Shown here piece by piece: positions 16,664 to 35,649 of a stretch of 64,000 nucleotides of DNA (position 1 is the stretch's first letter; each line of letters opens with the position of its first letter). The notes beneath the pieces are model-generated. The model was not told the origin of the DNA. It did no database searches and was given only the letters and a program-made list of their open reading frames with translations. A program made the position numbers and the translations under genes. Source of the stretch: Burkholderia multivorans ATCC BAA-247 (GTDB lineage: Bacteria > Pseudomonadota > Gammaproteobacteria > Burkholderiales > Burkholderiaceae); contig NZ_CP009830.1 of the NCBI RefSeq assembly GCF_000959525.1, positions 1 to 64,000 of the forward strand, written 5' to 3'.

Positions 16664-17616
16664 GCGCGTTCGTCCACGATGCGATTGCGTTGCACGCCGA
16701 GATCGATCCGCCCGTCCGCGCTGGCGATGCGTGCCTCGACGATGTCGCCGGGCCGCAGATACTGGCTTCTTCCCGCCTGGATTTTCATGAACATGCGCCA
16801 TTTGGCGGCCTCGGGCAGCAACGCCGCGATGCGCTGCTTCGCCGGCGACGGAACGCTCAGCGCGCAGCCGGAGGGCGTACCGGTCGCAATCAGGTCGCCC
16901 GCATGCAGGTCGTGCACCGCCGACAGTTCGGCGAGCGTCTCGGCCGGCCCGTAGACGAGATTGGCCGTCGAATCCTTCTGCCGCACCTGTCCGTTGACCG
17001 TAAGCGTCAGGTCGAGTCCGCGCAGCGCCGCCATGTCGCTCGCCTCCAGCATGCACAGATAAGGGCCGACCGGCCCAAACGTCCGGTAGCTCTTGCCTTT
17101 GTAGAACTGCATCTGAGGGATCTGCACGTCGCGGGCCGAGTAGTCGTTCACGATGACGATGCCGGCGATGTATTCATGCAGATTTGCATCGGTGACCGTC
17201 TGGCGAGTGGAGATATCGCGCTTCATCACCAGCCCGAGCTCGATCTCGTAGTCGAGAAATCGCACATGCCGTGGCCGCACGACGTGCGAATCGGCGGCCA
17301 CGACGCAACTGGCCGCCTTCGTGAAGATCATGTTGAAGGTCTTCGCGTCCGGATCCATGCCGGATTCGATCATGTGCTGGCGATAGTTGGCGCCCTGACA
17401 CACGAATTGCTGATTGCGCGTGACGGGCGACAGCCACGTCACCTCCGATTCCGGTAGGGTCGGCCCGGACAGCGCGGCCAGTTCCTCGATCCGGTTCGCG
17501 CGCACGAAATCGGCCGTCGTCTCGAACTCGCCCGGGATCGGCGTGATCGCCCCCTGCCTGATCACGCCCCACCGGGCGCGTCCTCGATGCTGGTAATGCA
17601 GAACATGCAGTGACAT
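16660..17616 (-). CDS. fumarylacetoacetate hydrolase (FAH) family protein
   Basis: 318 aa. The divalent-metal ligands are visible as Glu124 and Glu126 in LDYEIELGLVM and Asp158 in VNDYSARD; Lys173/Lys175 in QFYKGKS and the TGTPSG loop complete the site. The family cleaves C-C bonds of, isomerises or decarboxylates ring-fission products such as fumarylpyruvate and 2-hydroxyhepta-2,4-dienedioate. Between an extradiol-type dioxygenase and a CoA ligase, the expected job is hydrolysis of the ring-cleavage product. Confidence 0.87.
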   Translation of the reverse strand: MSLHVLHYQHRGRARWGVIRQGAITPIPGEFETTADFVRANRIEELAALSGPTLPESEVTWLSPVTRNQQFVCQGANYRQHMIESGMDPDAKTFNMIFTKAASCVVAADSHVVRPRHVRFLDYEIELGLVMKRDISTRQTVTDANLHEYIAGIVIVNDYSARDVQIPQMQFYKGKSYRTFGPVGPYLCMLEASDMAALRGLDLTLTVNGQVRQKDSTANLVYGPAETLAELSAVHDLHAGDLIATGTPSGCALSVPSPAKQRIAALLPEAAKWRMFMKIQAGRSQYLRPGDIVEARIASADGRIDLGVQRNRIVDERA

Positions 17617-17654
17617 GAATGTGCCTCAGGATAGCTGAACGAATCGGCGCCGCG

Positions 17655-18725: not shown

Positions 18726-18735
18726 GTCGAAGGCC

Positions 18736-20427
18736 TCAGACGGAAGATTGAACAGGTTCGGTGACGGAGGACGTTGTGCCGATCGGCATTCCGAGCAGGG
18801 CCAGACTCTCGGCAACGAGACGGTTGGCTTCGCTCGCCGGCCCGTCGTGAACGATCACCCGGTCGGGCCGGACCACCGCGGCCCACCCCAGCGGCACGGC
18901 GCGAGGCAGGAACACGCCCTCGAGATCCTCCCAGCTGCCGCTCGCCGTAAGATGCAGCCGCTGCCCGCGATGCGCGATCTGGACGACCGTTCCGCCGACG
19001 GCGGCAAAGGCCGCGGCCGTCCCGCTGTCGAGCGCCGCGGCGGCGTCGCGACCGAACCCGATCAACGTGAGGCCGGCGCCCTGTACATCGTCGCTCAGGC
19101 AGGTCCGGCCATCGGTTCCGCGCACCCAGCCCTGCGGCAGCACCGCCCCGCGCACCAGTCCGGACCTGGTGCGGCCCGGGACGAACAGCCCGCGCCGGCA
19201 TGCGTTGGCCGGCTTGATCTCCAGTTCTTCGAAATAGGCGCGCCACTTCGGCACGAGCCGGGTGGCGCGCATCAGGCCGTGCGTAAGCAATGCGACTCCG
19301 GCGTTACGCGGCATCACCAGCCGCCCCATGAGCTTCGCAAACCGGATCATCGCTTTCACGTGAGGCCGCCGTTCCTGGTCGTAAGTGGCGAGAATTCTCG
19401 GCGCTGCGCGCCCGTGGATTACCGACGCGAGCTTCCAGCACAGATTGGCGGCGTCGCGCAGCCCCGCGACCAGCCCTTGCCCGACAAAGGGCGGCGTAAT
19501 ATGCGCCGCGTCCCCCGCCAGAAAGACACGTCCCTGGCTGAACGCATTCACGGTCCGCGCGTGAAAGCGGTAGACCGCCTTGCGCTCGATCACCATGTCG
19601 TCGACGTTGCCCCACGGCGCAAGCAGTTCGCGAATGCGCGCGTCGGATTCCATCTCCTCGCGCGTTTCGCCGGGGCGCAGCATGAATTCCCAGCGCTCGC
19701 GCGCGCCGGGGGCCACCATGTGCGGCGTCGGCCGCCGGTGATCGCAAATGAATTCGACATGGTCGATCGGGCGGGGGACGTTGCGCGCGTCCACGATGAG
19801 CCAGTCCTCCATGAAGGTCTTGCCCTTGAACTCCTGCCCGATCAATTGACGGACGAGCGAACTCGCGCCGTCGGCGCCGATCACGTAACCGGCCCGGACG
19901 GTGTGGGTCCGTCCCTGCCCGAGATCCAGCGTTGCCGCGACCGCGTCGTGCCCGGCTTCGATGCCGAGCAGCGACACGCCGAGCGCCGTTTGCGCGCACG
20001 CGTATCGCTGCAGGCGGCGCCGCAGACAGCGTTCGAGGGTCGGCTGATAGAACGTCACGAGCTTGGGATGCCCGTCGATGCTGCCGAGCGTCTCGGCCTT
20101 GCCGAACTCTCCCAGCAGCGGCGAATGCATCCGCACACATGGGATCGCCACGGTTTCCAGTTCGTGCTCCGTCATACCGATGAGTTGCAGGATGCGCAAC
20201 GCTTCGTTATCGAGGGCGATCGCCCGGGGCGCCATATAGATGTCGGTCGCCTTGTCGATGACGAGCACGTTCACGCCGTCGCGCGCGAGCAGATTGGCTG
20301 CCGCCGCGCCGACCGGCCCGAAGCCGACGACGAGTACATCGACGCTCGACGGCAGCGCGTCGACGCTCTCCCGGTCGCGACCGAGCGGCGCGTCGACGCC
20401 GCCGTTCGTCTGCACATTTGTCTCCAC
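18736..20427 (-). CDS. FAD-dependent aromatic monooxygenase (MhpA/PheA-like)
   Basis: 563 aa from a GTG at 20427. That start has GGAG 5 nt upstream; the alternative ATG at 20478 would lie at or before the transcription start predicted from the -35 TTGACA (20505-20500) and -10 TTGAAT (20482-20477). Motifs: N-terminal FAD Rossmann VVGFGPVG (33-40), the GADGASS fingerprint, FLAGDAAHITPPFVGQG, and a C-terminal thioredoxin-like domain as in MhpA. It hydroxylates a phenolic ring with NAD(P)H and O2. It heads an operon with a ring-cleavage dioxygenase, FAH hydrolase and CoA ligase. The exact substrate is unknown. Confidence 0.87.
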   Translation of the reverse strand: METNVQTNGGVDAPLGRDRESVDALPSSVDVLVVGFGPVGAAAANLLARDGVNVLVIDKATDIYMAPRAIALDNEALRILQLIGMTEHELETVAIPCVRMHSPLLGEFGKAETLGSIDGHPKLVTFYQPTLERCLRRRLQRYACAQTALGVSLLGIEAGHDAVAATLDLGQGRTHTVRAGYVIGADGASSLVRQLIGQEFKGKTFMEDWLIVDARNVPRPIDHVEFICDHRRPTPHMVAPGARERWEFMLRPGETREEMESDARIRELLAPWGNVDDMVIERKAVYRFHARTVNAFSQGRVFLAGDAAHITPPFVGQGLVAGLRDAANLCWKLASVIHGRAAPRILATYDQERRPHVKAMIRFAKLMGRLVMPRNAGVALLTHGLMRATRLVPKWRAYFEELEIKPANACRRGLFVPGRTRSGLVRGAVLPQGWVRGTDGRTCLSDDVQGAGLTLIGFGRDAAAALDSGTAAAFAAVGGTVVQIAHRGQRLHLTASGSWEDLEGVFLPRAVPLGWAAVVRPDRVIVHDGPASEANRLVAESLALLGMPIGTTSSVTEPVQSSV

Positions 20428-20476
20428 ATGCACTCCAGTAATCGATCCGCCCGGCTCGGTTCGGCCGGTAAATGAC

Positions 20477-20527
20477 ATTCAACTCATAATTGATAACTTT
20501 GTCAATCATGATGTTTGAGTCTATACT
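20477..20527. promoter_or_regulatory. divergent promoters with a 28-bp palindromic operator (probable TetR site)
   Basis: Palindrome TCATAATTGA (20484-20493) - 8 nt - TCAATCATGA (20502-20511), arms matching at 9 of 10 positions. Plus-strand promoter for the TetR gene: TTGTCA (20499-20504), 17 nt, TATACT (20522-20527). Minus-strand promoter for the monooxygenase operon: TTGACA (20505-20500), 17 nt, TTGAAT (20482-20477). The palindrome covers the -35 of both, so a bound repressor would block both directions. Binding by the adjacent TetR protein is inference from position and symmetry. Confidence 0.7.
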
Positions 20528-20536
20528 CGGGCTTCG

Positions 20537-21301
20537 ATGCACGACCGTGATGCCATGCCGAATTCACCGAAGTCCCGCCTGGACAAGCGCCCTGCAGAGG
20601 GCACCTCCGACCTCGCCACCCCGGAACGCGAGCCGCGCGGCGCCCGCCGCAAGCGCGAAACGCGGGCGCGGCTGCTGGAAGCCGCGCTCGGGCTGATGGC
20701 GGAAAAAGGGGCGGAAGGCGTGGCGATCAACGAGATCACCGAGGCGGCCGACGTCGGATTCGGCTCGTTCTACAACCACTTCGAATCGAAAGAAGCGATC
20801 TATGCAGCGCTCGTGGACTGGGTATTCGAGGAATTTGCCGATACGCTCGACCGCGCCGCGGCAGACCTGTCGGATCCCGCCGAAGTCATTTCGGTATCGG
20901 TTCGACACACGTTGCTGCGCGCGCGGCGCGAACCGGTCTGGGGGCAATTCCTGATCCGCGAGGGTTTATCCGCGCGTGCGTTGAGCCACGGGCTCGGACA
21001 GCGGCTGCTGCGCGACGTGCAGAAAGGCGCGTCCGCCGGACGGTTCGATGTCGCCGATCCGCTGATGTCCGTCCTTTCCGTCGGCGGCACGGTCCTCGCC
21101 GCGATTGCCGCGGACTTGCAATTCGCCATCCCGTCCAGCCCCATGACGCGTGGATTCGGAACACGCGGATTCGGCAACGAAGACTTTCCGGAGCGGGCCG
21201 CGACCGTCCTGCTGCAAGGGCTCGGGCTCTCGCGCGCCGACGCGGAAGAGATCGCGCACCGGCCGTTGCCGGCCGTCTCGACGGACGCGCATGCGCGTTG
21301 A
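20537..21301 (+). CDS. TetR/AcrR family transcriptional regulator
   Basis: 254 aa. The TetR DNA-binding domain is at about 38-85 (RARLLEAALGLMAEKG, then the HTH EITEAADVGFGSFYNHFESK). The C-terminal ligand domain is not assignable. It is divergent from the monooxygenase operon and most likely its repressor, with an operator in the 109-nt gap. The predicted transcription start is within a few bases of ATG 20537, so translation may be leaderless; an in-frame ATG at 20555 is an alternative. Confidence 0.88.
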   Translation: MHDRDAMPNSPKSRLDKRPAEGTSDLATPEREPRGARRKRETRARLLEAALGLMAEKGAEGVAINEITEAADVGFGSFYNHFESKEAIYAALVDWVFEEFADTLDRAAADLSDPAEVISVSVRHTLLRARREPVWGQFLIREGLSARALSHGLGQRLLRDVQKGASAGRFDVADPLMSVLSVGGTVLAAIAADLQFAIPSSPMTRGFGTRGFGNEDFPERAATVLLQGLGLSRADAEEIAHRPLPAVSTDAHAR

Positions 21302-21437
21302 GGCAACGTGCAGCGGACAACGCCGCGGTGACGCGCTCGCGTCGACACACCTTCTACGGCAGACCGCTGCGGCACCTGCGGCATAGGTGGAGCAAGGTTC
21401 CCGCAACGAAAAATTCAACGCTGCGTAACCCGCACCC

Positions 21438-22340
21438 CTATGCCCCGAGCCTGTCCTTCAGAAACTCGACGCACGCGCGCACCTTCGCGGACTGCGCGAG
21501 CCGCGCCGGATAGACGGCCCAGACGTTCGCGGGCTGCGTGACGCCCGGCAGCACACGCTGCAGCCGGCCCGCATCGAGCAGCGGCTGCACGTCCCACACC
21601 GAGCGCAGCACGATCCCGCGCCCGGCGAGCGCCCACTGCACGGCCACCTCGCCGTGATTGCTCGACAGCGGCCCCGTCACCTGCACGGACACCGTCTCGC
21701 CGCGCGCGTCGAGCCGCCACACGCCGAACGGATGGTCGCGCTCCTTGATCGCGAGACAGGCGTGCGACGCGAGATCGCCGACCTGCTTCGGCGTGCCATG
21801 CCGCGCCAGATAGTCGGGCGACGCGCACAGCACGCGATGGTTCGTCGCAAGCTGCTTCGCGATCAGATGGCCGGCGATCTCGTCGCCGATGCGAATGTCG
21901 ACGTCGAAGCCCTCGGCCGCGACATCGACGATCCGGTCGAACAGTTCCAGCCGAACGTTGAGCTGCGGATGACGATCCGACAGCTCGGCCAGCGCCGGCG
22001 CGACCACGTTGCGGCCGAAGCCGAAGCTGCTCGACACGCGCAACGTGCCGCGCGGCACGCGGCGCGTGCTCGACACATCCTCGACCAGATGCTCGACGTC
22101 GTCGAGGATCTTCTCGGCCCACGCGTAGACGCGCTCGCCGGCGTCCGTCACCGACACGCGTCGCGTCGAGCGATGCAGCAGGCGAATCCCGAGGCTCGTC
22201 TCGAGCATCCCGACGCGCTTGCTGACGTACGACGACGACATCGCGAGCGCGTCGGCCGCCGCGCTGAAGCTCGCCTTGCGCGCGACCATGCAGAACACGC
22301 GCAGGTCGCCGAGTTCGGGCATCGCGCTCGTCTCGTTCAT
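21438..22340 (-). CDS. LysR family transcriptional regulator
   Basis: 300 aa, usual length. The N-terminal winged HTH (about 8-67) contains FSAAADALAMSSSYVSKRVGMLE, then a LysR substrate-binding domain. Its ATG overlaps the TGA of the 71-aa ORF upstream (ATGA at 22340-22337), and that ORF follows the NCS1 permease gene by 32 nt, so permease, small ORF and regulator look like one transcript. This makes it a candidate regulator of the carnitine region, unusual in being distal to the transporter rather than divergent. Confidence 0.88.
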   Translation of the reverse strand: MNETSAMPELGDLRVFCMVARKASFSAAADALAMSSSYVSKRVGMLETSLGIRLLHRSTRRVSVTDAGERVYAWAEKILDDVEHLVEDVSSTRRVPRGTLRVSSSFGFGRNVVAPALAELSDRHPQLNVRLELFDRIVDVAAEGFDVDIRIGDEIAGHLIAKQLATNHRVLCASPDYLARHGTPKQVGDLASHACLAIKERDHPFGVWRLDARGETVSVQVTGPLSSNHGEVAVQWALAGRGIVLRSVWDVQPLLDAGRLQRVLPGVTQPANVWAVYPARLAQSAKVRACVEFLKDRLGA

Positions 22341-22552
22341 CGCGCGCTTCCGTTCGGGGCGAACTGCAGATGGCGGTGCGTGCGCCGGCGTACGTCTTCG
22401 TCGCCGCCTTTCGGCGCGCGCGCGCGGGCCACATCGAACGCACTGGCGAGCACGCCGCCTTGCATGACCGCGTCCTGCCCACGGCTATCGGCGGCCGCGC
22501 ATGCGGGACCCAGCGCCACCAGCGACAGCACCCGCTTCAACATGGGGTTCAT
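22337..22552 (-). CDS. small protein with possible signal peptide, function unknown
   Basis: 71 aa. Residues 1-22 (MNPMLKRVLSLVALGPACAA) look like a short signal peptide; the rest is charged and Ala/Arg-rich with no recognised domain. Support comes mainly from context: it lies 32 nt after the permease stop codon and its TGA overlaps the LysR start as ATGA. The Shine-Dalgarno is weak. It could be a degraded remnant or a coupling ORF rather than a functional protein. Confidence 0.4.
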   Translation of the reverse strand: MNPMLKRVLSLVALGPACAAADSRGQDAVMQGGVLASAFDVARARAPKGGDEDVRRRTHRHLQFAPNGSAR

Positions 22553-22584
22553 CGTTTCATCGCGAAGTCGACGATCCGTGCGGA

Positions 22585-24027
22585 TCAGTTCAGGCCGCGA
22601 TCGGCCGCCTCGACGAGCTTGCGCTCCGCTTCGGTATCGAGCGAGCGGCATGCCCACAAATAGACGAGCGCGGCAACCGGCAGGCCGACCAGCATCGCGA
22701 TATCGGTACCGCCGAGCGCACGTGCGACGGGGCCGCTGTACGTCTCGGTCTTGAAGAACGGGATCATCGCGACGAAGCCGACCGCATACGCGGTAAGGCC
22801 GCGCCAGTTCCAGCGGCCGTAGATGCCGCGCGGATTGAAGATCTCGCGCACCGAGTAATGCGTATGCCGCACGAAGAAGAAGTCGACGAGGTTGATCGCG
22901 GTCCACGGCGTGAACAGATAACCGAGAATGCCGAGGAAGTCGCCGAACTTGCCCATGAAATCGTCGGATGCCGCGAACGCGAGCGACGTCGCGACGACCG
23001 CAACGATCAGCAGGCTCACGACGCGCTTGCCCGCGCTCGACTTGAGCGGCCGAAACGAATCGGTGATGCTGAGCAGCGTGAGCGAAGCGCCGTAGAAATT
23101 CAGGCCCGTGATCGCGAGCAGCCCGAGCAGCGACAGCAGCAGCGTGACGGAGCCGAAACCGGGATGGATCGCGTCGCCCGCACGCTGCACGGCATCGGCA
23201 ATCTCGATCTTCGAGTTCAGCGCGGCCGCGGCCGTACCGACCAGCATCATCCACGCGCCGCCGATCAGCGCGCCGGTGAAGGTCCACCAGAACGTTGCGC
23301 GCACACCGGTCTTGGGCGGCAGATAGCGCGAGTAGTCCGACACGTAGATCGACCACGACAGCTGGTAGGCCGCCGCCGCGAACAGCTGCACGAGGAACGG
23401 CGTCGCCTTGAAGGCCGCGAACGACAGCTGTTCGGCCGGGAACGGCACCTTCACGCAGATGCCGACGCTGAACACGCTCAATGCAACCAGCAGCGCGATC
23501 GCGAGCCAGCGCTGCGCCTTGTGAATCAGGTCGTAGCCGAAGATCGCGAGCGCCACCGCGATCGCGGTAAACACGATATAGCTGACGTGCGGCTCCGTGC
23601 CGAGCAAGTGATGCGCGGTCTGGCCGGCCATCAGCTGGTTGAACGAGTTGTAGCCGACATACGTGACGAGCGCGACGACCCATACCAGCAGCGCACCCAT
23701 GTAGCCGAACTGCGGCCGCGACTGGATCATCTGCGGCAGCCCGAGCTGCGGGCCCTGGCTCGAATGGAACGCCATGAAGAACGTGCCGAGCAGATTGCCG
23801 ATCAGCACCGCGATTGCGCTCCACAGCAGATTCCCGCCCATGCTCACGCCGATCGCACCGCACGCGATCGTCGCGAGATTCGCGTCGCCGGTAAACCAGA
23901 CGGGCCACAAGTGCCAGGCCTTGCCGCGCCGCTCCGCGAGCGGCACATAGTCGATCGAACGCGCCTCGATGCGCGACTTGCCGCGACCTTCCATCGCGAG
24001 GCCGTCGGCCACTGCCTGCTGTCTCAT
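22585..24027 (-). CDS. NCS1 family (cytosine/allantoin permease-like) transporter
   Basis: 480 aa with about 12 transmembrane segments. NCS1 signatures include SQGPQLGLPQMIQSRPQFG, YVGYNSFNQLMAG and SIYVSDYSRYLP. Members take up nucleobases, hydantoins, allantoin or thiamine-type heterocycles with H+ or Na+. ATG 24027 has GGAGGAGA directly upstream. It is divergent from cntA and shares the repeat-rich 362-nt control region, so it is a candidate importer for carnitine or a related quaternary amine. That would be a new substrate for the family and is inference; carnitine loci usually encode a BCCT transporter. Confidence 0.82.
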   Translation of the reverse strand: MRQQAVADGLAMEGRGKSRIEARSIDYVPLAERRGKAWHLWPVWFTGDANLATIACGAIGVSMGGNLLWSAIAVLIGNLLGTFFMAFHSSQGPQLGLPQMIQSRPQFGYMGALLVWVVALVTYVGYNSFNQLMAGQTAHHLLGTEPHVSYIVFTAIAVALAIFGYDLIHKAQRWLAIALLVALSVFSVGICVKVPFPAEQLSFAAFKATPFLVQLFAAAAYQLSWSIYVSDYSRYLPPKTGVRATFWWTFTGALIGGAWMMLVGTAAAALNSKIEIADAVQRAGDAIHPGFGSVTLLLSLLGLLAITGLNFYGASLTLLSITDSFRPLKSSAGKRVVSLLIVAVVATSLAFAASDDFMGKFGDFLGILGYLFTPWTAINLVDFFFVRHTHYSVREIFNPRGIYGRWNWRGLTAYAVGFVAMIPFFKTETYSGPVARALGGTDIAMLVGLPVAALVYLWACRSLDTEAERKLVEAADRGLN

Positions 24028-24389
24028 GTCTCCTCCATTGCGTCTGTCGGCGGCGGTGGCGCGCGGCGCCGCTAGCCGATCGAGATCCGATCGCGCCGCG
24101 GCCGGCCACCGTACACCTGTGACGTTACCTTACAGTTAACGATGAACTCATGGTTAACAATGGTACGCACTTCGCCTCCGGCACCGTACTAGCGCAATCT
24201 CCTATTGACGCAAGGTCAAACCGACGTGCTCACGATGTTCGGCCCGCATCAGGCGAAATAGGCGCGTTAAAAGCCGCCAATCTCGGGATAACCCTGATCC
24301 AAAACCGGCTGCACATCTTCTATATTTCGTTAACCGTTAGTTTTATCGTAACCGTCAGTTAATCAAAGTACCGCACCGAGCACGACGCC
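24028..24389. promoter_or_regulatory. divergent control region with four TAACCGTTAGTT-like elements
   Basis: 362 nt without a gene and more AT-rich than its surroundings. Plus-strand elements: TAACCGTTAGTT (24331-24342) and TAACCGTCAGTT (24349-24360), starts 18 nt apart, ending 29 nt before cntA. Minus-strand elements: TAACCATGAGTT (24156-24145) and TAACTGTAAGGT (24138-24127), again 18 nt apart, pointing at the permease. Agreement with the first copy is 11/12, 10/12 and 9/12. The mirror arrangement looks like paired binding sites for one regulator serving both promoters. Confidence 0.65.
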
Positions 24390-25538
24390 ATGACCTACCT
24401 GCCGATCGAATTCCACCAGAAAGCCAAGCTGCCGCAACTGCCGGCCGATTTCTGCTCGAACCCGGAACTCGCGTGGACGATTCCGAAAACCTATTACACG
24501 TCGCAGGAGGTCTTCAAGGTCGAGGAAGAGAAAATCTTCGCCGACACGTGGATCTGCGTCGCGCATCGCAGCGAACTGGCCGACGCGAACCAGTATGTAA
24601 CGCGCGAAGTGATTGGCGAAAACGTGCTGATCGTGCGCGGCAAGGACAAGGTGCTGCGCGCGTTCTACAACGTCTGCCCGCACCGCGGGCATCAGCTGCT
24701 CGAAGGCAGCGGCAAGGCGAAGAACGTCATCACGTGCCCGTACCACGCGTGGACGTTCAAGCTCGACGGCGCGCTCGCGCACGCGAACAACTGCGATCAC
24801 GTGATGGCGTTCGACAAGGAGAACGCGAGCCTCGTGCCGGTCAAGGTCGAAGAATACGCAGGCTTCGTGTTCATCAACCTGAACCCGAACGCCGGCACGG
24901 TCGAGGCGCAGCTGCCCGGCATGGAGGCGCGCCTGCGCGCCGCGTGCCCGGTGATCGACGACCTGAAGCTCGCCGCGCGGTTCGTCAGCGAGACACCCGC
25001 GAACTGGAAGTCGATCGTCGACAACTATCTCGAGTGCTACCACTGCGGCCCCGCGCACCCCGGCTTCTCCGACTCGGTGAAGATCGACCAGTACACGCAC
25101 ACGCTGCACGGCAACTGGACGCTGCAGTTCGGACACGCGGAATCGTCGGAGCGTTCGTTCAAGCTCGACCCGTCGATCAAGGACGCGAGCTTCCAGGGCT
25201 TCTGGGCGTGGCCGTGCACGATGTTCAACGTGCCGCCGGGCGCGGATTTCATGACGGTGATCTATGAATTCCCGGTCAACGCCGAAGTGACGCTGCAGCA
25301 CTACGACATCTATTTCCTGAACGAAGAGCTGACCGACTATCAGAAGAACCTGATCGAGTGGTACCGCAACGTGTTCCGTCCGGAAGACCTGCGCCTCGTC
25401 GAGAGCGTGCAGAAGGGGCTGAAGTCGCGCGGCTATCGCGGCCAGGGCCGGATCATGGTCGACCAGCGACGCAGCGGCATCAGCGAACACGGCATCGCGC
25501 ACTTCCATCATCTGCTCGCACAAAAGTATCAGGACTGA
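24390..25538 (+). CDS. cntA: carnitine monooxygenase, oxygenase subunit (CntA/YeaW), Rieske non-haem iron
   Basis: 382 aa. Rieske ligands Cys96-x-His98 (CPHRGH) and Cys116-x2-His119 (CPYHAW); mononuclear iron site His218 and His223 in NYLECYHCGPAHPGF. The residue bridging the two metal centres is Glu215 where most ring-hydroxylating oxygenases have Asp; Glu here is characteristic of CntA. The C-terminal segment with SRGYRGQGRI is also strongly CntA-like. It oxidises L-carnitine to trimethylamine and malic semialdehyde using electrons from CntB. Followed after 24 nt by an aldehyde dehydrogenase gene. gamma-Butyrobetaine or choline as alternative substrates cannot be excluded. Confidence 0.85.
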   Translation: MTYLPIEFHQKAKLPQLPADFCSNPELAWTIPKTYYTSQEVFKVEEEKIFADTWICVAHRSELADANQYVTREVIGENVLIVRGKDKVLRAFYNVCPHRGHQLLEGSGKAKNVITCPYHAWTFKLDGALAHANNCDHVMAFDKENASLVPVKVEEYAGFVFINLNPNAGTVEAQLPGMEARLRAACPVIDDLKLAARFVSETPANWKSIVDNYLECYHCGPAHPGFSDSVKIDQYTHTLHGNWTLQFGHAESSERSFKLDPSIKDASFQGFWAWPCTMFNVPPGADFMTVIYEFPVNAEVTLQHYDIYFLNEELTDYQKNLIEWYRNVFRPEDLRLVESVQKGLKSRGYRGQGRIMVDQRRSGISEHGIAHFHHLLAQKYQD

Positions 25539-25562
25539 CACCCCGCACCAGGACGACATAAC

Positions 25563-27023
25563 ATGACTGCCCTTCAATCACCGAGCCTGCTGCGCGAGCA
25601 GGCCTACATTGCCGGCGCGTGGCGCGGCGCCCACGACGGCGCGGTGCTCGACGTCACCAATCCGTCGACCGGCGAGCGGATCGCACGCGTGCCGAACATG
25701 GGCGCCGGCGAGGCGCGCGCCGCGATCGAGGCCGCGCATACGGCGTTCGCGACGTGGCGCAAGACCACCGCGAAGGAGCGCGCGCGCCTGCTGCGCAACT
25801 GGTTCGAGCTCATCATGGCGCGCCAGGAAGAGCTCGCGGCGCTGATGACGCGCGAGCAGGGCAAGCCGCTCGCCGAAGCGCGCGGCGAGATCGCCTATGC
25901 GGCATCGTTCGTCGAATGGTTCGCCGAGCAGGCCAAGCGTATCGACGGCGACGTGATCCCGAGTCCGAACCCCGATCAGCGCCTCGTCGTGACGAAGGAA
26001 CCGGTCGGCGTCTGCGCGGCGATCACGCCGTGGAATTTCCCCGCGGCGATGATCACGCGCAAGGCCGCCCCCGCGCTCGCGGCCGGCTGCACGATCGTGA
26101 TCAAGCCCGCGAACGAGACGCCGCTGTCCGCGTTCGCGCTCGCGGCGCTCGCCGAGGAAGCCGGCATTCCGGCCGGCGTCGTCAACGTCGTGACCGGCAA
26201 GTCGCGCGAGATCGGCGCGGAAATGACCTCGAGCCCGCTCGTCAAGAAGCTGACCTTCACCGGGTCGACCGAAGTCGGCCGGCTGCTGATGCGCCAGTGC
26301 TCGGATACCGTGAAGAAGATGTCGCTCGAACTGGGCGGCAACGCGCCGTTCATCGTGTTCGACGATGCCGATCTCGAGCGCGCGGTCGAAGGCGCGCTGC
26401 TGTCGAAGTACCGCAACGCGGGCCAGACCTGCGTGTGCGCGAACCGCTTCTTCGTGCACGACGCCGTGTACGACGAATTCTGCCGCCGCTTCGCGGAGCG
26501 CGTCGCGGCGTTCCATGTCGGCGACGGTTTCGACGCCGGCGTCAACATCGGCCCGCTGATCAACGAAGCCGCGCGCGACAAGGTCGACGGCCTCGTACGC
26601 GACGCGGTCGCGCAAGGTGCGCGCGTGCTGGTGGGCGGCGCACCGCACGCGCGCGGCGGCAACTTCTACGCGCCCACCGTGCTTGCGGACGCGAAGCCCG
26701 GGATGGCCGTGCTGAGCGAGGAAATCTTCGGACCTGTTGCGCCGATCGTGCGCTTCACGAGCGACGACGAAGTCGTGCGTCTCGCGAACGACTCGATCTA
26801 CGGCCTCGCCGCGTACTTCTACAGCCGCGACATCGGCCGCGTGTGGCGCGTGGCCGAGCAGCTCGAATACGGGATCGTCGGCATCAACAGCGGGTTGATT
26901 TCGAACGAAGTGGCGCCGTTCGGCGGCGTCAAGCAATCGGGCATCGGACGCGAAGGCTCCAAGTACGGGATCGAGGATTTCCTGTCGATCAAATACCTGT
27001 GCATGGGCGGCGTGAGCGCCTGA
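25563..27023 (+). CDS. NAD(P)-dependent aldehyde dehydrogenase (probable malic semialdehyde dehydrogenase; SSADH-like)
   Basis: 486 aa. PWNFP motif at 156-160, general base Glu256 (LELGGNAPF), nucleophile Cys290 followed by Cys292 (GQTCVCANR), the double-Cys signature of GabD-type succinate semialdehyde dehydrogenases. Its position between cntA and cntB suggests the substrate is malic semialdehyde, a 3-hydroxylated analogue of succinate semialdehyde released from carnitine, giving malate. A rho-independent terminator follows the stop codon. Confidence 0.87.
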   Translation: MTALQSPSLLREQAYIAGAWRGAHDGAVLDVTNPSTGERIARVPNMGAGEARAAIEAAHTAFATWRKTTAKERARLLRNWFELIMARQEELAALMTREQGKPLAEARGEIAYAASFVEWFAEQAKRIDGDVIPSPNPDQRLVVTKEPVGVCAAITPWNFPAAMITRKAAPALAAGCTIVIKPANETPLSAFALAALAEEAGIPAGVVNVVTGKSREIGAEMTSSPLVKKLTFTGSTEVGRLLMRQCSDTVKKMSLELGGNAPFIVFDDADLERAVEGALLSKYRNAGQTCVCANRFFVHDAVYDEFCRRFAERVAAFHVGDGFDAGVNIGPLINEAARDKVDGLVRDAVAQGARVLVGGAPHARGGNFYAPTVLADAKPGMAVLSEEIFGPVAPIVRFTSDDEVVRLANDSIYGLAAYFYSRDIGRVWRVAEQLEYGIVGINSGLISNEVAPFGGVKQSGIGREGSKYGIEDFLSIKYLCMGGVSA

Positions 27024-27034
27024 TCTCCGTGACG

Positions 27035-27062
27035 GGCGCGCGCTTCGGTCGCGCGCCTTTTT
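27035..27062 (+). terminator. rho-independent terminator
   Basis: Stem GGCGCGCG (27035-27042) with CGCGCGCC (27050-27057), 7-nt loop CTTCGGT, followed by TTTTT (27058-27062). It lies 11 nt after the aldehyde dehydrogenase stop codon and 46 nt before cntB, so it should separate or attenuate transcription between the oxygenase and reductase genes. Confidence 0.85.
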
Positions 27063-27108
27063 CTGCTGTACCGAATCCCTGCTTTACCCGCCGGCAAAGG
27101 AATGCCTG

Positions 27109-28074
27109 ATGAACGCCCGTGAATCGATCTTCGTCGACGTTGTCGCCGTCGAAACCCTGACCCCGCTGATCAAGCGCTTCACGCTCGCGCTGCCCGACGG
27201 CGCGCCGTTGCCGCCGTTCAGCGGCGGCGCCCACGTGCTCGTGTCGATGCAAAACGGCGAGCGGTGGCACCACAACGCGTACTCGCTGCTGAGCTCGCCG
27301 CACGACACGCGCCAATACCAGATCGCGGTGCGTCGCGAGGAAGCGTCGCGCGGCGGTTCGGCGTTCATGCACGAGCATGTCGCGGCCGGGACGCGGCTCG
27401 CGATCGGCTCGCCCGCGAACCTGTTCGAACTCGCGCGCAACGCACGCCGCCATGTGTTCATCGCCGGCGGCATCGGCATCACGCCGTTCCTTGCGCAACT
27501 CGCCGAGCATGCGCCCGGCGGCGATGTCGAGCTCGAACTGCACTACGCGTACCGCAGCCCCGAACACGGCGCGTTCGTCGACGAGCTGAAGGCCGGCCCG
27601 CATGCGGCGAACGTGCATACCTACGTCGACAGCCTCGGCCAGCGCCTCGATCTGATGCGTCTGTTCAAGACGCTGCCCGCCGACGCGCACGTCTACGTGT
27701 GCGGACCGCAAGGCCTGAACGACGCCGTCTATGCGAATGCCGCGCTGCTCGGCTGGCCGAAGTCGCAGCTCCATGCCGAACAGTTCGCCGCGACCGATAC
27801 GGCCGGCCAGGCCTTCACCGTCGTGCTCGCGCGCTCGGGCATCGAGCTCGAGGTGCCCGAGGACACGACGATCCTGCAGGCGATCGAGCGCGCCGGCGTA
27901 AAGATCGACTCGCTGTGCCGCGAAGGCGTGTGCGGTACCTGCGAGGTCGCGATCCTCGAAGGCGAGGCCGATCACCGCGACCAGTATCTCGACGACGACG
28001 AAAAGGCCGCGCAGAAGACGATCCTGCTGTGCGTCTCGCGTGCGCGCACGCCGCGCCTCGTGATCGACCTGTAA
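27109..28074 (+). CDS. cntB: carnitine monooxygenase reductase (CntB/YeaX), FMN-[2Fe-2S]
   Basis: 321 aa in PDR/VanB order: FMN-binding barrel (about 8-105, with HHNAYSLLSSP), NAD-binding domain (GGIGITPF, CGPQGLN), then a C-terminal plant-type ferredoxin with Cys270, Cys275, Cys278 and Cys308 (CREGVCGTC ... LLCVSRA). It passes electrons from NAD(P)H to the Rieske centre of CntA. A terminator stands between it and the upstream gene, so it may have its own promoter or depend on read-through. Other aromatic demethylase reductases share this architecture; the CntB assignment rests on the neighbouring cntA. Confidence 0.83.
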   Translation: MNARESIFVDVVAVETLTPLIKRFTLALPDGAPLPPFSGGAHVLVSMQNGERWHHNAYSLLSSPHDTRQYQIAVRREEASRGGSAFMHEHVAAGTRLAIGSPANLFELARNARRHVFIAGGIGITPFLAQLAEHAPGGDVELELHYAYRSPEHGAFVDELKAGPHAANVHTYVDSLGQRLDLMRLFKTLPADAHVYVCGPQGLNDAVYANAALLGWPKSQLHAEQFAATDTAGQAFTVVLARSGIELEVPEDTTILQAIERAGVKIDSLCREGVCGTCEVAILEGEADHRDQYLDDDEKAAQKTILLCVSRARTPRLVIDL

Positions 28075-28090
28075 ATTTTCCCGCGCGCCG

Positions 28091-28113
28091 TATCCGGTAA
28101 ACTACGCCGGATA
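28091..28113. repeat. short perfect inverted repeat after cntB
   Basis: TATCCGG (28091-28097) and CCGGATA (28107-28113) with a 9-nt loop, 17 nt after the cntB stop. No T-run follows on either strand, so a rho-independent terminator is not supported. The centre GGTAAACT resembles a beta-proteobacterial -10 element, so it could belong to the promoter of the downstream regulator gene. Confidence 0.35.
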
Positions 28114-28235
28114 CAGGAACCCCGGCGCGCCGTTCCTTTTCGACGCGGCGGCATCGCCCGCGGCCCGCCCCTCGCGCGCCGCGGCCGATGCCGCCTTGTC
28201 GCCTGGCCGCGCGCCGCCGTCAGAAAGAGGAATGG

Positions 28236-29306
28236 ATGTCCGAGGATACGTTCGCGTTCCGTCTCAAGGTGCTCCTCGAGCACAAGAAGCTGAGCCTGCA
28301 GCAGGTGGCCGACGCGGTCGGCATTTCGCGGCCGGCCGTGCACAAGTGGACGCGCGGCGGCGAGATCGACTATTCCAACCTGCGCAAGCTCGCCGCGTTC
28401 CTCGACGTCAATTGGGTCTGGCTGCGCTACGGCGACGACGCGGTGAAGGATCTCGGCATCGGCGCGCAGCCCGAACTGCCGATGACCGACCTGCGCCGCC
28501 GCTATACCGCCGAAATCGTGTCGAGCGAAGCGCGCATGAAGCACGCGCAGGAAGCGGCCGGCATCGTCACCTGGGAATGGAATCTCGTGTCCGACGAGCT
28601 GATCTATTCCGACAACTGCGCGAAGCTGTACGGCCGCGAAATCCATAGCAACGAGGAGTTCTGGGACATCCTGCATCCCGACGAGCGCAGCTGGCTCAAC
28701 AGCCGCGCGCTGCGGGAAGCGATCGACGCACGCAAGCCGTACGTGTGGGAGTTCCGGATCGTGCTGCCGGACGGCACCGTGCGCTGGATCGAATCGCGCA
28801 CCGCGACGCTCGTCGACGATGCGGGCCGGCCGACGCGGATGGTCGGCACGACGATCGACATCAGCGCGCGCAAGTCGCTGGAACAGCAGCTGCGTGCGCA
28901 GATCGCGCTGCTCGCCGACGCCGAGCGCCTGGCCGGGCGCGGGGCGTGGCAATGGCGGCAGGCACCGGATGAAGTGATGGTCTCGGACGAATGGTGCCGG
29001 CTGTTCGGCGTCGAGCGTGACGATGCGCCGCATCGTCATGCGCAAGTGCAGGCACGCGTGCATCCGGACGATCGCGCCGCGCGCGATGCCGCACTGCAGG
29101 AAGCGATGGCGAAGCACGGCGACTATCGCGCGTTGTATCGCGCACTGCTGCCCGACGGCACCGTGCGGCTGATGCTCGAGCAGGGCCACGCGCGCCCCGA
29201 CGACGAAGGCGACGGCGTGCGGGTGACGGCCATGTGCCGCGCAGCGGAACCCGCCGACGCGATGGCTTTCGCCGCGCAACCGGCCGCGGCGACCACGCCG
29301 CACTGA
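28236..29306 (+). CDS. XRE-type HTH regulator with two PAS domains
   Basis: 356 aa from ATG 28236, preceded by AGAGG 5 nt upstream. Residues about 6-60 form a Cro/CI-type HTH (LSLQQVADAVGISRPAVHKWTRGG). Two PAS_3-type repeats follow, at about 100-215 (AAGIVTWEWNLVSDELIYSD ... GTTIDISARK) and about 228-330 (GAWQWRQAPDEVMVSDEW). PAS domains sense small ligands, redox state or cofactors. No kinase or other output domain is present, so DNA binding is the likely output. It follows cntB on the same strand and is a candidate regulator of carnitine use; that link is positional only. Confidence 0.8.
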   Translation: MSEDTFAFRLKVLLEHKKLSLQQVADAVGISRPAVHKWTRGGEIDYSNLRKLAAFLDVNWVWLRYGDDAVKDLGIGAQPELPMTDLRRRYTAEIVSSEARMKHAQEAAGIVTWEWNLVSDELIYSDNCAKLYGREIHSNEEFWDILHPDERSWLNSRALREAIDARKPYVWEFRIVLPDGTVRWIESRTATLVDDAGRPTRMVGTTIDISARKSLEQQLRAQIALLADAERLAGRGAWQWRQAPDEVMVSDEWCRLFGVERDDAPHRHAQVQARVHPDDRAARDAALQEAMAKHGDYRALYRALLPDGTVRLMLEQGHARPDDEGDGVRVTAMCRAAEPADAMAFAAQPAAATTPH

Positions 29307-29347
29307 CGTCCGTCTGCCCGCGCATCTCGCGTCGCGTACGGCCAGCG

Positions 29348-30427
29348 TCAGAGTGCGGCCGCGACCGCCTTGCCGAGCGCCGTCGTATCGGCCGTGCCGC
29401 CCATGTCGGGCGTGCGCGGCCCGCTCACGAGCACCGTCTCGATCGCGCGCATGATGGCGTCGTGCGCGTCCTTGAAGCGTGCGTCGCCATCGCCGAGGAA
29501 ATCCAGCATCATCGCGCCGGACCAGATCATCGCGATCGGGTTGGCGATGTTCTTGCCGAAGATGTCCGGTGCCGAGCCGTGCACGGGCTCGAACAGCGAC
29601 GGGAAGATGCGCTCCGGATTCAGGTTTGCCGATGCGGCAAGACCGATCGTGCCCGTGCATGCAGGACCGAGATCCGACAGGATGTCGCCGAACAGGTTCG
29701 AGGCGACGACCACGTCGAAGCGATCCGGCTGCAGCACGAAGCGCGCCGACAGAATGTCGATGTGCTGCTTGTCCCACGCGATGTCCGGATAGCCGGCCGC
29801 GATCGCGGCGACGCGCTCGTCCCAGTACGGCATGCTGACCGCGATGCCGTTCGACTTGGTCGCCGCCGTGAGCTTCTTGCGCGCACGCGTATTCGCCAGC
29901 TCGAACGCGTACTTGAGGATGCGGTCGACGCCGTGACGCGTGAACACCGACTCCTGCAGCACGAATTCACGATCGGTGCCTTCGAACATCCTGCCACCGA
30001 CCGACGTGTATTCGCCTTCGGTGTTCTCGCGCACCACATAGAAATCGATGTCGCCGGGCTTGCGATTCGCGAGCGGGCACGGCACGCCGGGCAGCAGGCG
30101 CACGGGACGCAGGTTCACGTACTGGTCGAATTCGCGGCGGAACTTCAGCAGCGAACCCCACAGCGAAATATGGTCGGGCACCTTGTCGGGCCAGCCGACT
30201 GCGCCGAAGTAGATCGCATCGTAGCCGCGCAGCGTTTCGAACCAGTCGTCCGGCATCATCTTGCCGTGCTGCAGGTAGTAGTCGCAGCTTGCCCACTCGA
30301 AATGCGTGAACTCGAGGTTCAGGCCGAACTTCGCGCATGCCGCTTGCAACACGCGCACGCCTTCGGGCATCACTTCCTGGCCGATGCCGTCGCCGGCGAT
30401 CGCGGCGATCTTGAATGTCTGGGTCAT
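29348..30427 (-). CDS. dmlA: D-malate/tartrate dehydrogenase (decarboxylating), DmlA/YeaU type
   Basis: 359 aa, member of the beta-decarboxylating hydroxyacid dehydrogenase family (IMDH/ICDH fold). Visible: nucleotide loop start GDGIGQEV, substrate-site blocks RENTEGEY and NLFGDILSDLG, and cofactor loop EPVHGSAPDIFGKNIANP. It oxidises D-malate, and often tartrate or 3-isopropylmalate-like acids, to pyruvate and CO2 with NAD+. Beside cntAB it would finish carnitine catabolism, as in E. coli where yeaU, yeaW and yeaX are neighbours. It is convergent with the XRE-PAS gene (41-nt gap). Confidence 0.85.
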   Translation of the reverse strand: MTQTFKIAAIAGDGIGQEVMPEGVRVLQAACAKFGLNLEFTHFEWASCDYYLQHGKMMPDDWFETLRGYDAIYFGAVGWPDKVPDHISLWGSLLKFRREFDQYVNLRPVRLLPGVPCPLANRKPGDIDFYVVRENTEGEYTSVGGRMFEGTDREFVLQESVFTRHGVDRILKYAFELANTRARKKLTAATKSNGIAVSMPYWDERVAAIAAGYPDIAWDKQHIDILSARFVLQPDRFDVVVASNLFGDILSDLGPACTGTIGLAASANLNPERIFPSLFEPVHGSAPDIFGKNIANPIAMIWSGAMMLDFLGDGDARFKDAHDAIMRAIETVLVSGPRTPDMGGTADTTALGKAVAAAL

Positions 30428-30839
30428 TTCCGGTTCTACCTGTGTGTCGTCGGTACGTCTTGCGTCTGCTTCGATGCGCCGGTGTGCGGCGCTCGGTCGG
30501 CGTGCGCGCGACATGCGCGGGTGCACGCAACGCATGGACGACAGGATGCCGGAAAGCGCGGCGCGGATAATCCGCTCAACCGGGGATTCGTCTTGCACGA
30601 ATCGTGGATAATCGCGGGGCGGCGAGCATCCCGCTCGCAGGAAGCGTTGCCGACCTTGGCGATCCGGTTGAAAACGCGCGCCTCGTCGGGCTCGTCGGGG
30701 GTGTCGAGCGGTTGCCGCTTTCCGTTGCGCGTGTCGGCATCGATTTGTCCGATCCACGGTCTGCGCGGGCAATCGATGACTACGCGGTCGATCTTCAAGC
30801 CGGTCGATCGCCGTCAGTTGCACAACGCAGGCCCGCCCA
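30428..30839. other. 412-nt stretch without a recognised gene
   Basis: Upstream of dmlA (minus strand) and downstream of the small secreted protein gene (minus strand). The dmlA promoter presumably lies here, but I cannot point to a confident -35/-10 pair. Open frames on the plus strand across it have no ribosome binding site or recognisable family. Confidence 0.4.
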
Positions 30840-31241
30840 TCATCGCGCCGGCGTGCGCACTTCCCCATCCACCCTCAACGTGCGCGCCCCTCGCGCGACG
30901 TCGTATTCGACCGTTTGCGCGGGCGTCACGGCCCCGTACGAAATGCCGTTCACGTACACCGTGCCCTGCTTCAATTCGATCTTGTCCCCGTCGACCGTCG
31001 CCGTTCCCCGCTCGCCCTTCAGCACGGCGCCGGCGCATCCCTGCGTCGAAAAGCTGCGAACCGTCGTGTCGGCGATCATCGACGCGCCCTGTCGATCCGG
31101 CAACATCGGCTGCATACCCGGCGGCGCAGCGTTCGCCGCACGACATGGCGACGCGTCCCCGCCGCCCGCGCCATACGCAGCGCCGCAGACGATGGCGCAT
31201 CCGACACACAGCATGGCCGCCGATGACTGCAGTCCGTTCAT
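30840..31241 (-). CDS. secreted hypothetical protein
   Basis: 133 aa with a signal peptide (MNGLQSSAAMLCVGCAIVCG, cleavage near AAYG-AGG). ATG 31241 has GGAGG about 5 nt upstream. Mature residues about 50-130 alternate short beta segments (TATVDGDKIELKQGTVYVNG, SYGAVTPAQTVEYDV), suggesting a small beta-rich fold. No family recognised. Several Cys residues in the signal region raise the possibility of a lipoprotein, but no clean lipobox is evident. No operon partners. Confidence 0.6.
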   Translation of the reverse strand: MNGLQSSAAMLCVGCAIVCGAAYGAGGGDASPCRAANAAPPGMQPMLPDRQGASMIADTTVRSFSTQGCAGAVLKGERGTATVDGDKIELKQGTVYVNGISYGAVTPAQTVEYDVARGARTLRVDGEVRTPAR

Positions 31242-31795
31242 GCCACCCTCCATTGCGTGCCCATCGATTCTTCGGATCCAAGCGCGATAGATCCTGAGCG
31301 CAAGTGTGCCTCGAATCGCGTCGAAGCGCTTTAAGTAGACACACTCACACAACAACGTTGCCAGGACGCACCACCGATTCTCACACCGGTCATTCGACGC
31401 TTTTTTCAAGAAAAGGGGCGCAACCGGGCTTGCCGAGTTCGCGGCCATGCTCCCGATCAAAGGCTGCGCTATGGCCGCGCACGAATGACGGACGTCGCCC
31501 CCCCCTGCCCGGCTCGGCGTGAATGACGCATGGCGCGGCACCGACATCGGACGGCAACTGACGACGCACACGATGCGCTTCATCGACGCCATGCATCGTC
31601 GCAAACGTGATTTTGGAATGCGAATCGATGGACTGAGCTCATGGTCGCGCGAGCTCGCTTGATGGTTGTGGAGGTTTCTCGCATCGCTGCCGGCACGGCG
31701 CTGCACGGCCCCGCGAATATTTTTCGGTGACAATGGTCGGCGTATCAAAATCCGTCGTCCAATGACGACCCGTTTGGAATTGATGCGGAAGCGCC
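31242..31795. other. 554-nt intergenic stretch between divergent genes
   Basis: Lies between the secreted hypothetical (minus) and the LysR gene (plus). Less GC-rich and less codon-structured than its neighbours; frames across it have no start signals or family resemblance. It may contain a decayed gene, but no fragment is identifiable. Confidence 0.4.
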
Positions 31796-32698
31796 ATGAA
31801 AGTAGAAAACTCGGAACTCGAAGCGTTTGTCGCCGTCGCGGAACTGGGGACGTTCCATCGTGCGGCGGAGAAGCTGCACCTCACGCAGCCGGGGCTTTCC
31901 CGTCGCATCCAGAAACTGGAGCAGGCGCTCGGCGTCGAGTTGTTCCAGCGCACGACGCGCAGCGTGACGCTCACCGGCGTGGGCCGCCAGTTCCTGCCGA
32001 TGGCGCGCGAGCAGATCGCGCAGCTCGGGATGATGCTGTCGTCGATCCAGGAAATCGCGGAGAAGCGCTACGGCAAGGTGCGCGTCTCGAGCATTCCGAC
32101 CGTCGTCGCGCAGCTGCTGCCGAAGGTGCTGCTTCAGTATGCAGAGAAATATCCGCTGATCGGCGTGCAGATCCTCGACGGCAATCACGACTTCGTGCTG
32201 TCGCAGGTGCGCGCGGGCATCGCGGAGTTTGGTGTGAGCCTGCATCCCGGCGACGACGAGGACCTGCTGTTCGAGCCGCTGTTTCCCGATCGCTACGTGC
32301 TGGCCGTGCATCGCGACGACCCGCTCGCACAGCTCGAGGGCGTGACGCTCGCCGAGCTGCGCCACGCGCGCCTCGTAATCGGCGGGCGCGACAGCGGCAA
32401 CCGGCTGCTGCTCGAAATGCTAATGGGACAGGAAGCCGTGCGCCTGCGCTGGTTCTACGAAGTCGAGCACATCTCGTGCGTCGCGGCACTCGTCGCGGCC
32501 GGTGTGGGCTGCGCGATCCTGCCGCGCAGCGCGGTCGACGGCATCGGCATGCTCGCGTCGCCCGACGTGCGTGCGGTGCCGATCACGAGCCCCGTCATCT
32601 CGCGCACGGTCGGCATCGTCCGGCATCGCGCGGTGTCGATGTCGAGCATGGCGAGCGATCTGTGCGCGCTGGTCAAGGCCGCCGCCGCGCGGGAATAA
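31796..32698 (+). CDS. LysR family transcriptional regulator
   Basis: 300 aa. The N-terminal winged HTH (3-62) contains FHRAAEKLHLTQPGLSRRIQKLEQ, followed by a LysR effector domain (about 90-295). It lies 139 nt upstream of the D-aminoacylase/MFS/amidase genes on the same strand, a tandem rather than divergent arrangement, so control of that operon is plausible. It could alternatively act on other loci; no operator was identified. Confidence 0.87.
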   Translation: MKVENSELEAFVAVAELGTFHRAAEKLHLTQPGLSRRIQKLEQALGVELFQRTTRSVTLTGVGRQFLPMAREQIAQLGMMLSSIQEIAEKRYGKVRVSSIPTVVAQLLPKVLLQYAEKYPLIGVQILDGNHDFVLSQVRAGIAEFGVSLHPGDDEDLLFEPLFPDRYVLAVHRDDPLAQLEGVTLAELRHARLVIGGRDSGNRLLLEMLMGQEAVRLRWFYEVEHISCVAALVAAGVGCAILPRSAVDGIGMLASPDVRAVPITSPVISRTVGIVRHRAVSMSSMASDLCALVKAAAARE

Positions 32699-32837
32699 GC
32701 GATGCGCATGCCGGTTTGATAGCGTTCGCGCATGAATCGCGAGCAGACTCGCATTGGACGGCCGGAAATTGGCCGCAGACGATAAGTGGCAGACAGTACC
32801 GGCCCACCCCACGGCCCGGCTGCAGCAAGGAGCCACC

Positions 32838-34313: not shown

Positions 34314-34315
34314 TC

Positions 34316-35647: not shown

Positions 35648-35649
35648 TC

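Follow-up and report, generated by a model that had tools for sequence, protein, structure and literature searches.

A predicted aerobic carnitine-degradation locus of Burkholderia multivorans in which an NCS1-family permease appears to replace the BCCT importer

The carnitine locus and its degradation enzymes

The stretch of DNA analysed here (hereafter the window) comprises 64,000 nucleotides at the start of contig NZ_CP009830.1, a replicon of 550,289 bases that is the smallest of three in the Burkholderia multivorans genome. It carries a gene cluster predicted to degrade L-carnitine, built around the genes for the two subunits of carnitine monooxygenase, cntA and cntB, in which a permease of the NCS1 family appears to take the place that a carrier of the BCCT family holds in most other cnt loci (Table 1). 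An earlier reading of positions 22585-30427 (the original prediction) had named six genes, all of which are present there as intact open reading frames (ORFs). The gene calls from the ORF list are concordant with the annotation of B. multivorans record NZ_CP020399.1, which is 100% identical over window positions 22585-30500; a further record, NZ_CP143553.1, is 99.2% identical.

Table 1. Features of the cnt locus in the window
Feature	Position	Strand	Basis or remark
LysR regulator, CarR/DmlR/TtdR-like	21438..22340	-	outside the interval of the original prediction
NCS1-family permease, annotated 'cytosine permease'	22585..24027	-	PF02133; proposed carnitine importer replacing BCCT
Divergent promoter region of the permease gene and cntA	24028..24389		362 bases; blocks conserved across 9 aligned loci
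GTTAAC-N12-GTTAAC operator-like doublet, permease side	24135..24158	+	exact match
Degenerate doublet, cntA side	24329..24352	+	2 mismatches
cntA, Rieske carnitine monooxygenase oxygenase subunit (predicted)	24390..25538	+	PDB match, residues, tree
Malic semialdehyde dehydrogenase (predicted), SSADH-type aldehyde dehydrogenase	25563..27023	+	identity to A. baumannii MSA-DH, TIGR01780; named from its operon context
cntB, carnitine monooxygenase reductase subunit (predicted)	27109..28074	+	CntB identity, Fer2 domain
Regulator with XRE-type helix-turn-helix and PAS domains	28188..29306 (annotated coding sequence from 28236)	+	HTH_3 and PAS_3; candidate binder of the GTTAAC doublet
D-malate dehydrogenase (predicted), dmlA/TtuC type, tartrate/D-malate family	29348..30427	-	TIGR02089; identity to A. 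baumannii cluster gene

We compared this locus with the best 80 of 571 confirmed stretches (596 matched) from GTDB genomes, a set that is not random and includes many close kin. Within 9 kb of cntA, these 80 cnt loci carry a related LysR gene (66 loci), a malate dehydrogenase (MDH) gene (62), a malic semialdehyde dehydrogenase (MSA-DH) gene (55) and cntB (76). A chance assembly of the gene set was rejected because these same genes recur near cntA across the loci. A class-level search with cntA at E 1e-100 returned only its own genome among the 369 sampled.

Among PDB entries, the oxygenase matches best the carnitine monooxygenase CntA of Acinetobacter baumannii (6y8j, E 6.8e-206), and the two aligned proteins are 75% identical. 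All 17 positions checked, comprising metal, bridging, cysteine and substrate positions, agree with the A. baumannii enzyme; the four Rieske ligands among them were placed by residue number and motif. The group V Rieske features are kept, namely the Rieske ligands, the 2-His-1-Asp site, the bridging glutamate, Cys206/Cys209, Tyr203 and the pocket residues. Glu215 and Tyr213 of the B. multivorans protein align with Glu205 and Tyr203, in agreement with the bridging role that the original prediction had assigned to Glu215. Eleven of the checked positions come from the accessible text of one source (PMC7948474) and two, Cys206 and Cys209, from that of another (PMC10952381).

In a tree of 33 rows (29 CntA-type proteins and four Rieske oxygenases of 35-38% identity as outgroup), the oxygenase was placed among the CntA rows and apart from the outgroup. 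The original prediction had proposed a phylogeny against CntA, GbcA and Stc2 as a check, and the tree answers its CntA part, with GbcA and Stc2 not among the rows. A GbcA- or Stc2-like oxygenase was rejected on the score of the NCBIfam GbcA model (156.7 bits against a cut-off of 670) and on position 203, which is tyrosine as in group Va and not asparagine as in group Vb (residues per the accessible text of PMC7948474). Judged by its sequence, the oxygenase is a CntA-type carnitine monooxygenase subunit, and the PDB match, the residues and the tree all bear out the identity first proposed for it. The identity proposed for CntB also holds; the protein is 53% identical to the A. baumannii and 55% to the Klebsiella CntB and contains a Fer2 domain.

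The aldehyde dehydrogenase encoded between the two subunit genes is 63% identical to A. baumannii MSA-DH and passes TIGR01780, the model for succinic semialdehyde dehydrogenase (SSADH), with 729.7 bits against a cut-off of 646.35. It keeps the MSA-DH residues R166, N184, E256, R284, C290, C292 and S447 at identical numbers (residues as given in the accessible text of PMC11353897). These residues are also found in SSADHs and are thus necessary, not sufficient, for which reason the predicted name leans on the operon context. The dehydrogenase at the far end of the cluster passes the NCBIfam tartrate-dehydrogenase model TIGR02089 (565.6 against 470.4 bits) and is 76% identical to the A. baumannii cluster gene, the product of which was shown to be a D-malate dehydrogenase (PMC11353897, accessible text). 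It is a predicted D-malate dehydrogenase of the DmlA/TtuC type, and the score and identity confirm that such a gene lies nearby, as had been claimed.

The stereochemical argument of the original prediction, that (R)-carnitine leads to D-malate, is textbook chemistry and holds. At C3 of (R)-carnitine the substituents rank OH, CH2N+, CH2COO-, H, and in malate OH, COOH, CH2COOH, H; since no bond at the stereocentre breaks, R stays R, and R-malate is D-malate. The route drawn earlier was right in its D-malate and its nearby dehydrogenase, and omitted the aldehyde dehydrogenase that would form the D-malate. This outcome is not new, having been published in 2024 for A. baumannii. According to the accessible text of that work, D-malate formed by MSA-DH was seen by chiral high-performance liquid chromatography, MDH converted D-malate but not L-malate and yielded pyruvate, the pathway was rebuilt in Escherichia coli, and deletion of mdh abolished growth on L-carnitine (PMC11353897).

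Further along the same replicon, annotation places a cluster of D-aminoacylase, MFS transporter and amidase genes at window positions 32754-37000 and a gallate dioxygenase cluster at 48020-49324.

The NCS1-family permease and its relatives

The permease passes PF02133 (185.5 against 23.5 bits), its sole Pfam family, and the BCCT family PF02028 was not reported for it. It scores under the cut-off of the NCBIfam nucleobase:cation symporter model TIGR00800 (128.9 against 353.1). Its PDB matches are Mhp1 entries only, with E about 1e-4; of the TM3/TM6 aromatic pair (transmembrane helices 3 and 6) between which the nucleobase is sandwiched, this weak alignment sets Tyr123 opposite Mhp1 Trp117 of TM3, and the register of TM6 is unsure. 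Queries with cnt-type BCCT, hyd and choline-type ATP-binding cassette (ABC) proteins gave no match in window positions 17001-32000. The genome yielded a single BCCT, encoded on a different replicon; it shares 28-30% identity with the cnt BCCTs of A. baumannii and Klebsiella, which are 54% identical to each other.

Among the best 80 cnt loci, 67 carry a close BCCT (at least 50% identity), five a close NCS1 permease (at least 80%), two a weak BCCT match only and six neither, and a close BCCT and a close NCS1 permease are never found together (0 of 80). The five NCS1-type loci belong to Burkholderia and Paraburkholderia, and the CntA proteins of NCS1-type loci form a single clade (7 rows, support 96/100). 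Across the genus, an NCS1 orthologue of at least 95% identity is present in 5 of 65 genomes, the next highest identity being 42%, and cntA is present at 95-100% in the same five genomes, with the next best at 38%. In the Burkholderiaceae family sample, NCS1 reaches at least 86% identity in 6 of 299 genomes, and copies of 66-67% occur in two; one genome has both. Moreover, cntA adjoins the NCS1 gene divergently in all nine distinct genomes with an orthologue of at least 86%. For this count, L018 and L136 (100% identical over 20,000 bases) and L020 and G644 (100% over 4,443 bases) were each taken once, and stretches L019, L021 and L022, which also have NCS1 beside cntA, stand outside it, as they were found through cntA. 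An order-level search with the permease at E 1e-130 found only its own genome (1 of 399).

The claim of a different transporter thus proved correct, the locus having an NCS1-family permease gene where most other cnt loci have BCCT. The original prediction had noted this swap and not pursued it. By its position and distribution, the permease appears to replace the BCCT importer in this cnt operon. No earlier report of an NCS1 carnitine importer was found in the accessible portions of the open-licence literature.

Some more distant relatives of the permease also lie near genes predicted to act on onium compounds. A homologue of 61-62% identity on a Novosphingobium plasmid is located three genes from a carnitine 3-dehydrogenase gene (above the NCBIfam cut-off), and the intervening genes encode a 3-keto-acid cleavage protein and a regulator of the GlxA family (GbdR model, under its cut-off); the cluster is predicted to encode the other known carnitine route. 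Homologues of 66-67% in two Paraburkholderia genomes (L148 and L149) are found amid genes for a double CoA-transferase, AcuI (above cut-off), a choline-dehydrogenase-like enzyme and a PotABCD-type ABC importer, and the L149 cluster additionally includes a methylmalonate-semialdehyde dehydrogenase. The double CoA-transferase has 838 amino acids, the L149 copy ending at the edge of its stretch, and had no PDB relative at E 1e-40; the label 'DddD-like' therefore rests on domain content and neighbours. On these grounds we take both to be probable DddD-type clusters for dimethylsulfoniopropionate (DMSP). Linkage of dddD with acuI has been described in other bacteria (PMC3338564, accessible text). 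The cnt-linked, Novosphingobium and dddD-cluster permeases group together in the tree (support 96/92). When the Novosphingobium permease served as query at phylum level (E 1e-140), the B. multivorans genome alone was recovered (1 of 349).

The GTTAAC element and its candidate readers

All three GTTAAC hexamers of the window fall in the 362-base intergenic region between the permease gene and cntA, and two of them form the exact GTTAAC-N12-GTTAAC doublet. The degenerate doublet on the cntA side, starting at 24329, ranks second in the window, a place it shares with a match at 60150 that likewise has 2 mismatches. When the 362 bases were shuffled 20,000 times by mononucleotide, the exact doublet never arose, and the three hexamers are invariant in nine aligned NCS1-cntA loci. 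A sigma-70 scan of the region found no site. The 15-base block GGGATAACCCTGATC at window positions 24285-24299 is identical in all nine aligned Burkholderia/Paraburkholderia intergenic regions.

A count over the best 80 cnt loci (1,615,961 bases) gave 44 exact doublets, each no more than 260 bases upstream of where the match to either cntA or the transporter gene starts. If up to one mismatch is allowed, the doublet is present in 5/5 NCS1 loci, 28/67 BCCT loci and 0/8 others, the last class pooling six loci without a transporter match and two with a weak BCCT match only; it precedes both cntA and the transporter gene in 21 loci, all of the BCCT type. Here the doublet precedes the NCS1 gene, and in Pseudomonas and a few others it precedes the BCCT gene and/or cntA. 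Thus, an element located before the transporter gene persists where the transporter differs, which is the strongest indirect sign that NCS1 does the job of BCCT. The accessible part of the open-licence literature yielded no earlier report of a GTTAAC element for carnitine operons.

The original prediction had also proposed different regulators, which is largely wrong. A cnt-type LysR gene lies just outside the interval it covered, and an XRE-PAS gene was found in 34 of the best 80 cnt loci. The LysR protein shares 59% identity with its counterpart in the cnt cluster of Klebsiella and 43% with CarR, the carnitine-responsive LysR activator of A. baumannii. It is the genome's best match to the Klebsiella protein, with a chromosome-2 paralogue almost equal, scores under the NCBIfam TtdR cut-off (346 against 398 bits) and accompanies NCS1-cntA in loci L017-L022, L134-L136, L150 and L152 of Burkholderia and Paraburkholderia. 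In one of these, a Paraburkholderia-type locus, the LysR gene has an additional gene for a Rieske oxygenase on one side and a gene for a porin on the other (L021:4639-8080); neither is annotated at the equivalent place in the B. multivorans record.

The doublet, again with at most one mismatch, is present in 26 of the 34 loci with an XRE-PAS gene and in 7 of the 46 without (Fisher p 4e-8, kinship ignored). We give the XRE-PAS protein about an even chance of being the reader of the doublet. CarR is disfavoured in that role, since as much as a single GTTAAC was seen in only 2 of 61 intergenic regions between LysR and mdh genes.

Interpretation and comparison with known systems

From the observed gene content, residues, synteny and distribution of the element, we infer the enzyme activities in the strain, the permease substrate and the element-binding protein as follows. 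The importer would bring L-carnitine into the cell, where its cleavage by NADH-driven CntA/CntB would yield trimethylamine plus (R)-malic semialdehyde; D-malate would then be formed from the semialdehyde by the aldehyde dehydrogenase, and oxidized and decarboxylated to pyruvate by the DmlA-type enzyme. The NCS1 permease, encoded divergently from cntA and apparently behind the same kind of operator-like element, would substitute for the BCCT carrier as a member of a subclade of NCS1 importers for zwitterionic onium compounds resembling carnitine. The XRE-PAS protein, possibly together with LysR, would control both promoters through GTTAAC-N12-GTTAAC. We put the probability that the locus serves aerobic carnitine degradation as an operon of the Acinetobacter/Pseudomonas type, with an NCS1 importer and XRE-PAS/GTTAAC control, at roughly 0.75. 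Taken by itself, the CntAB carnitine pathway is very likely to be correctly read, and import of onium compounds by the permease is likely. A broader proposal, towards which we lean somewhat less strongly, is that an NCS1 subclade turned into an importer of zwitterionic onium compounds, in CntAB operons, the Novosphingobium carnitine-dehydrogenase cluster and the Paraburkholderia dddD-like DMSP clusters, and that NCS1 here took the place of BCCT together with its operator, probably read by XRE-PAS.

Several observations weigh against this interpretation. The Pseudomonas cnt loci L056 and L057 hold a close BCCT gene plus an NCS1 gene of 38-40% identity further downstream. The dddD-like clusters also carry the PotABCD-type ABC importer, an ABC system has been reported for DMSP in Burkholderia ambifaria (PMC13270143, accessible text), and no such permease is annotated in a cluster of Paraburkholderia caribensis whose CoA-transferase is 90% identical. 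Nine of ten carnitine-dehydrogenase neighbourhoods examined, that of B. multivorans itself included, are without NCS1; a 56% homologue from Rhodococcus falls outside the supported group and has no clear onium context, and homologues of 37-46% adjoin varied, unrelated genes. Gene neighbourhood is, in any case, no proof of a permease substrate. Furthermore, doublet and XRE-PAS gene are discordant in 15 of the 80 loci, a few of them on short contigs, with kinship again ignored. The Rhodococcus homologue is plasmid-borne and lies beside aldehyde dehydrogenase and acyl-CoA dehydrogenase/ligase genes (L165:8001-9434).

The best-surviving alternative, which we nevertheless consider unlikely, accepts the catabolic operon as described and has carnitine enter elsewhere, through a choline-type ABC importer or the lone BCCT, leaving the NCS1 permease to move another onium compound, a nucleobase or a pathway product. 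Beyond that single BCCT and the nucleobase-like names given to NCS1 at family level, it draws on a second carnitine route on another replicon (C2, about 2.031-2.036 Mb; L182:6932-11432). There, a predicted L-carnitine dehydrogenase gene (685 against 414 bits) is accompanied by an ORF aligned with the C-terminal portion of the model for carnitine 3-dehydrogenase, presumably a thioesterase, by an esterase-like ORF, by a 3-keto-acid cleavage homologue (65% identical to the Novosphingobium one, below NCBIfam cut-offs) and by a choline-type ABC binding protein gene above its cut-off (457 against 379 bits), another possible carnitine importer. Against entry by these paths stand the strict co-occurrence of NCS1 with cntA, with no close BCCT in the same loci, the operator-like element that NCS1 shares, and the relative that sits in a second, unrelated carnitine pathway. 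A TGA in the L-carnitine dehydrogenase cluster lies between two separate ORFs.

The same replicon carries a second dmlA-like gene (about 246983-249047; L153:4984-7048), 73% identical to the window copy and with a divergent LysR gene 74% identical to the window LysR, which may mask a single dmlA deletion. The growth tests on carnitine that the original prediction suggested are confounded by the encoded L-carnitine dehydrogenase route and this second dmlA-like gene; because of both, a cntA or dmlA mutant that still grew on carnitine would not refute the claim.

It is rather improbable that the main substrate is gamma-butyrobetaine or an acylcarnitine and not free L-carnitine. High activity of CntA orthologues is described for L-carnitine and gamma-butyrobetaine alike (PMC9508527, accessible text), and the residues checked in the aldehyde dehydrogenase do not separate malic from succinic semialdehyde. 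However, gamma-butyrobetaine would give succinic semialdehyde and leave a D-malate dehydrogenase unneeded, and by this pathway logic the D-malate dehydrogenase gene of the cluster fits carnitine. A chance link of the operon to a dehydrogenase serving tartrate/D-malate use in general would fit the tartrate dehydrogenase name given by family models, the generalist E. coli orthologue (PMC11353897, accessible text) and the clusters without a complete dmlA (not found in stretches L019, L020 and L022, partial in L151), which count against the proposed operon as well, but it is very improbable given the DmlA-type gene near cntA in most of the best 80 loci and the growth defect of the A. baumannii mdh deletion. 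In the partial case, a Paraburkholderia cnt cluster (L151:1154-1658), the D-malate dehydrogenase matches only residues 1-146 and 321-359.

Returning to the NCS1-equipped carnitine operon, its novelty is the importer; as the degradation chemistry is settled elsewhere, the value of the locus lies in transport and control. If the reading is true, a family routinely annotated 'cytosine permease' includes onium importers, and searches of genomes for BCCT or ABC genes may miss the capacity to form trimethylamine or to use DMSP. BCCT and ABC are the two known importer families according to the accessible text of a 2026 paper on DMSP import (PMC13270143). For Pseudomonas and Burkholderia, the GTTAAC doublet offers an operator of carnitine operons that can be tested, and the gene of a candidate regulator lies beside it.

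Among known systems, the A. baumannii cluster carR-mdh-bcct-hyd-cntA-msadh-cntB (PMC11353897, accessible text) shares cntA, msadh, cntB and mdh with the locus at 53-76% identity, as well as the expected reactions to trimethylamine, D-malate and pyruvate. It has BCCT and hyd genes, whereas B. multivorans has NCS1 and no hyd match in window positions 17001-32000, carries dmlA on the opposite strand at the distal end, and has an XRE-PAS gene. The Pseudomonas cnt clusters (for example L043, L054 and L063) resemble the locus in the XRE-PAS gene behind cntB and in GTTAAC-N12-GTTAAC before the transporter gene and cntA; their BCCT gene is codirectional with cntA, whereas the NCS1 gene of B. multivorans is divergent. 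The original prediction had seen a mirror of E. coli yeaU/yeaW/yeaX. The E. coli cluster yeaT-yeaU-yeaV-yeaW-yeaX does share carR, mdh, cntA and cntB orthologues, but it has BCCT and lacks msadh, and the accessible text of the source gives no known growth of E. coli on carnitine as sole carbon source (PMC11353897); Acinetobacter and Klebsiella are the closer parallels. Finally, the permease shares PF02133 membership with the NCS1 transporters Mhp1 (hydantoins) and CodB (cytosine), from which it is very distant, and differs from them in its carnitine-catabolism gene context and in the weakly aligned Tyr123 at the TM3 tryptophan.

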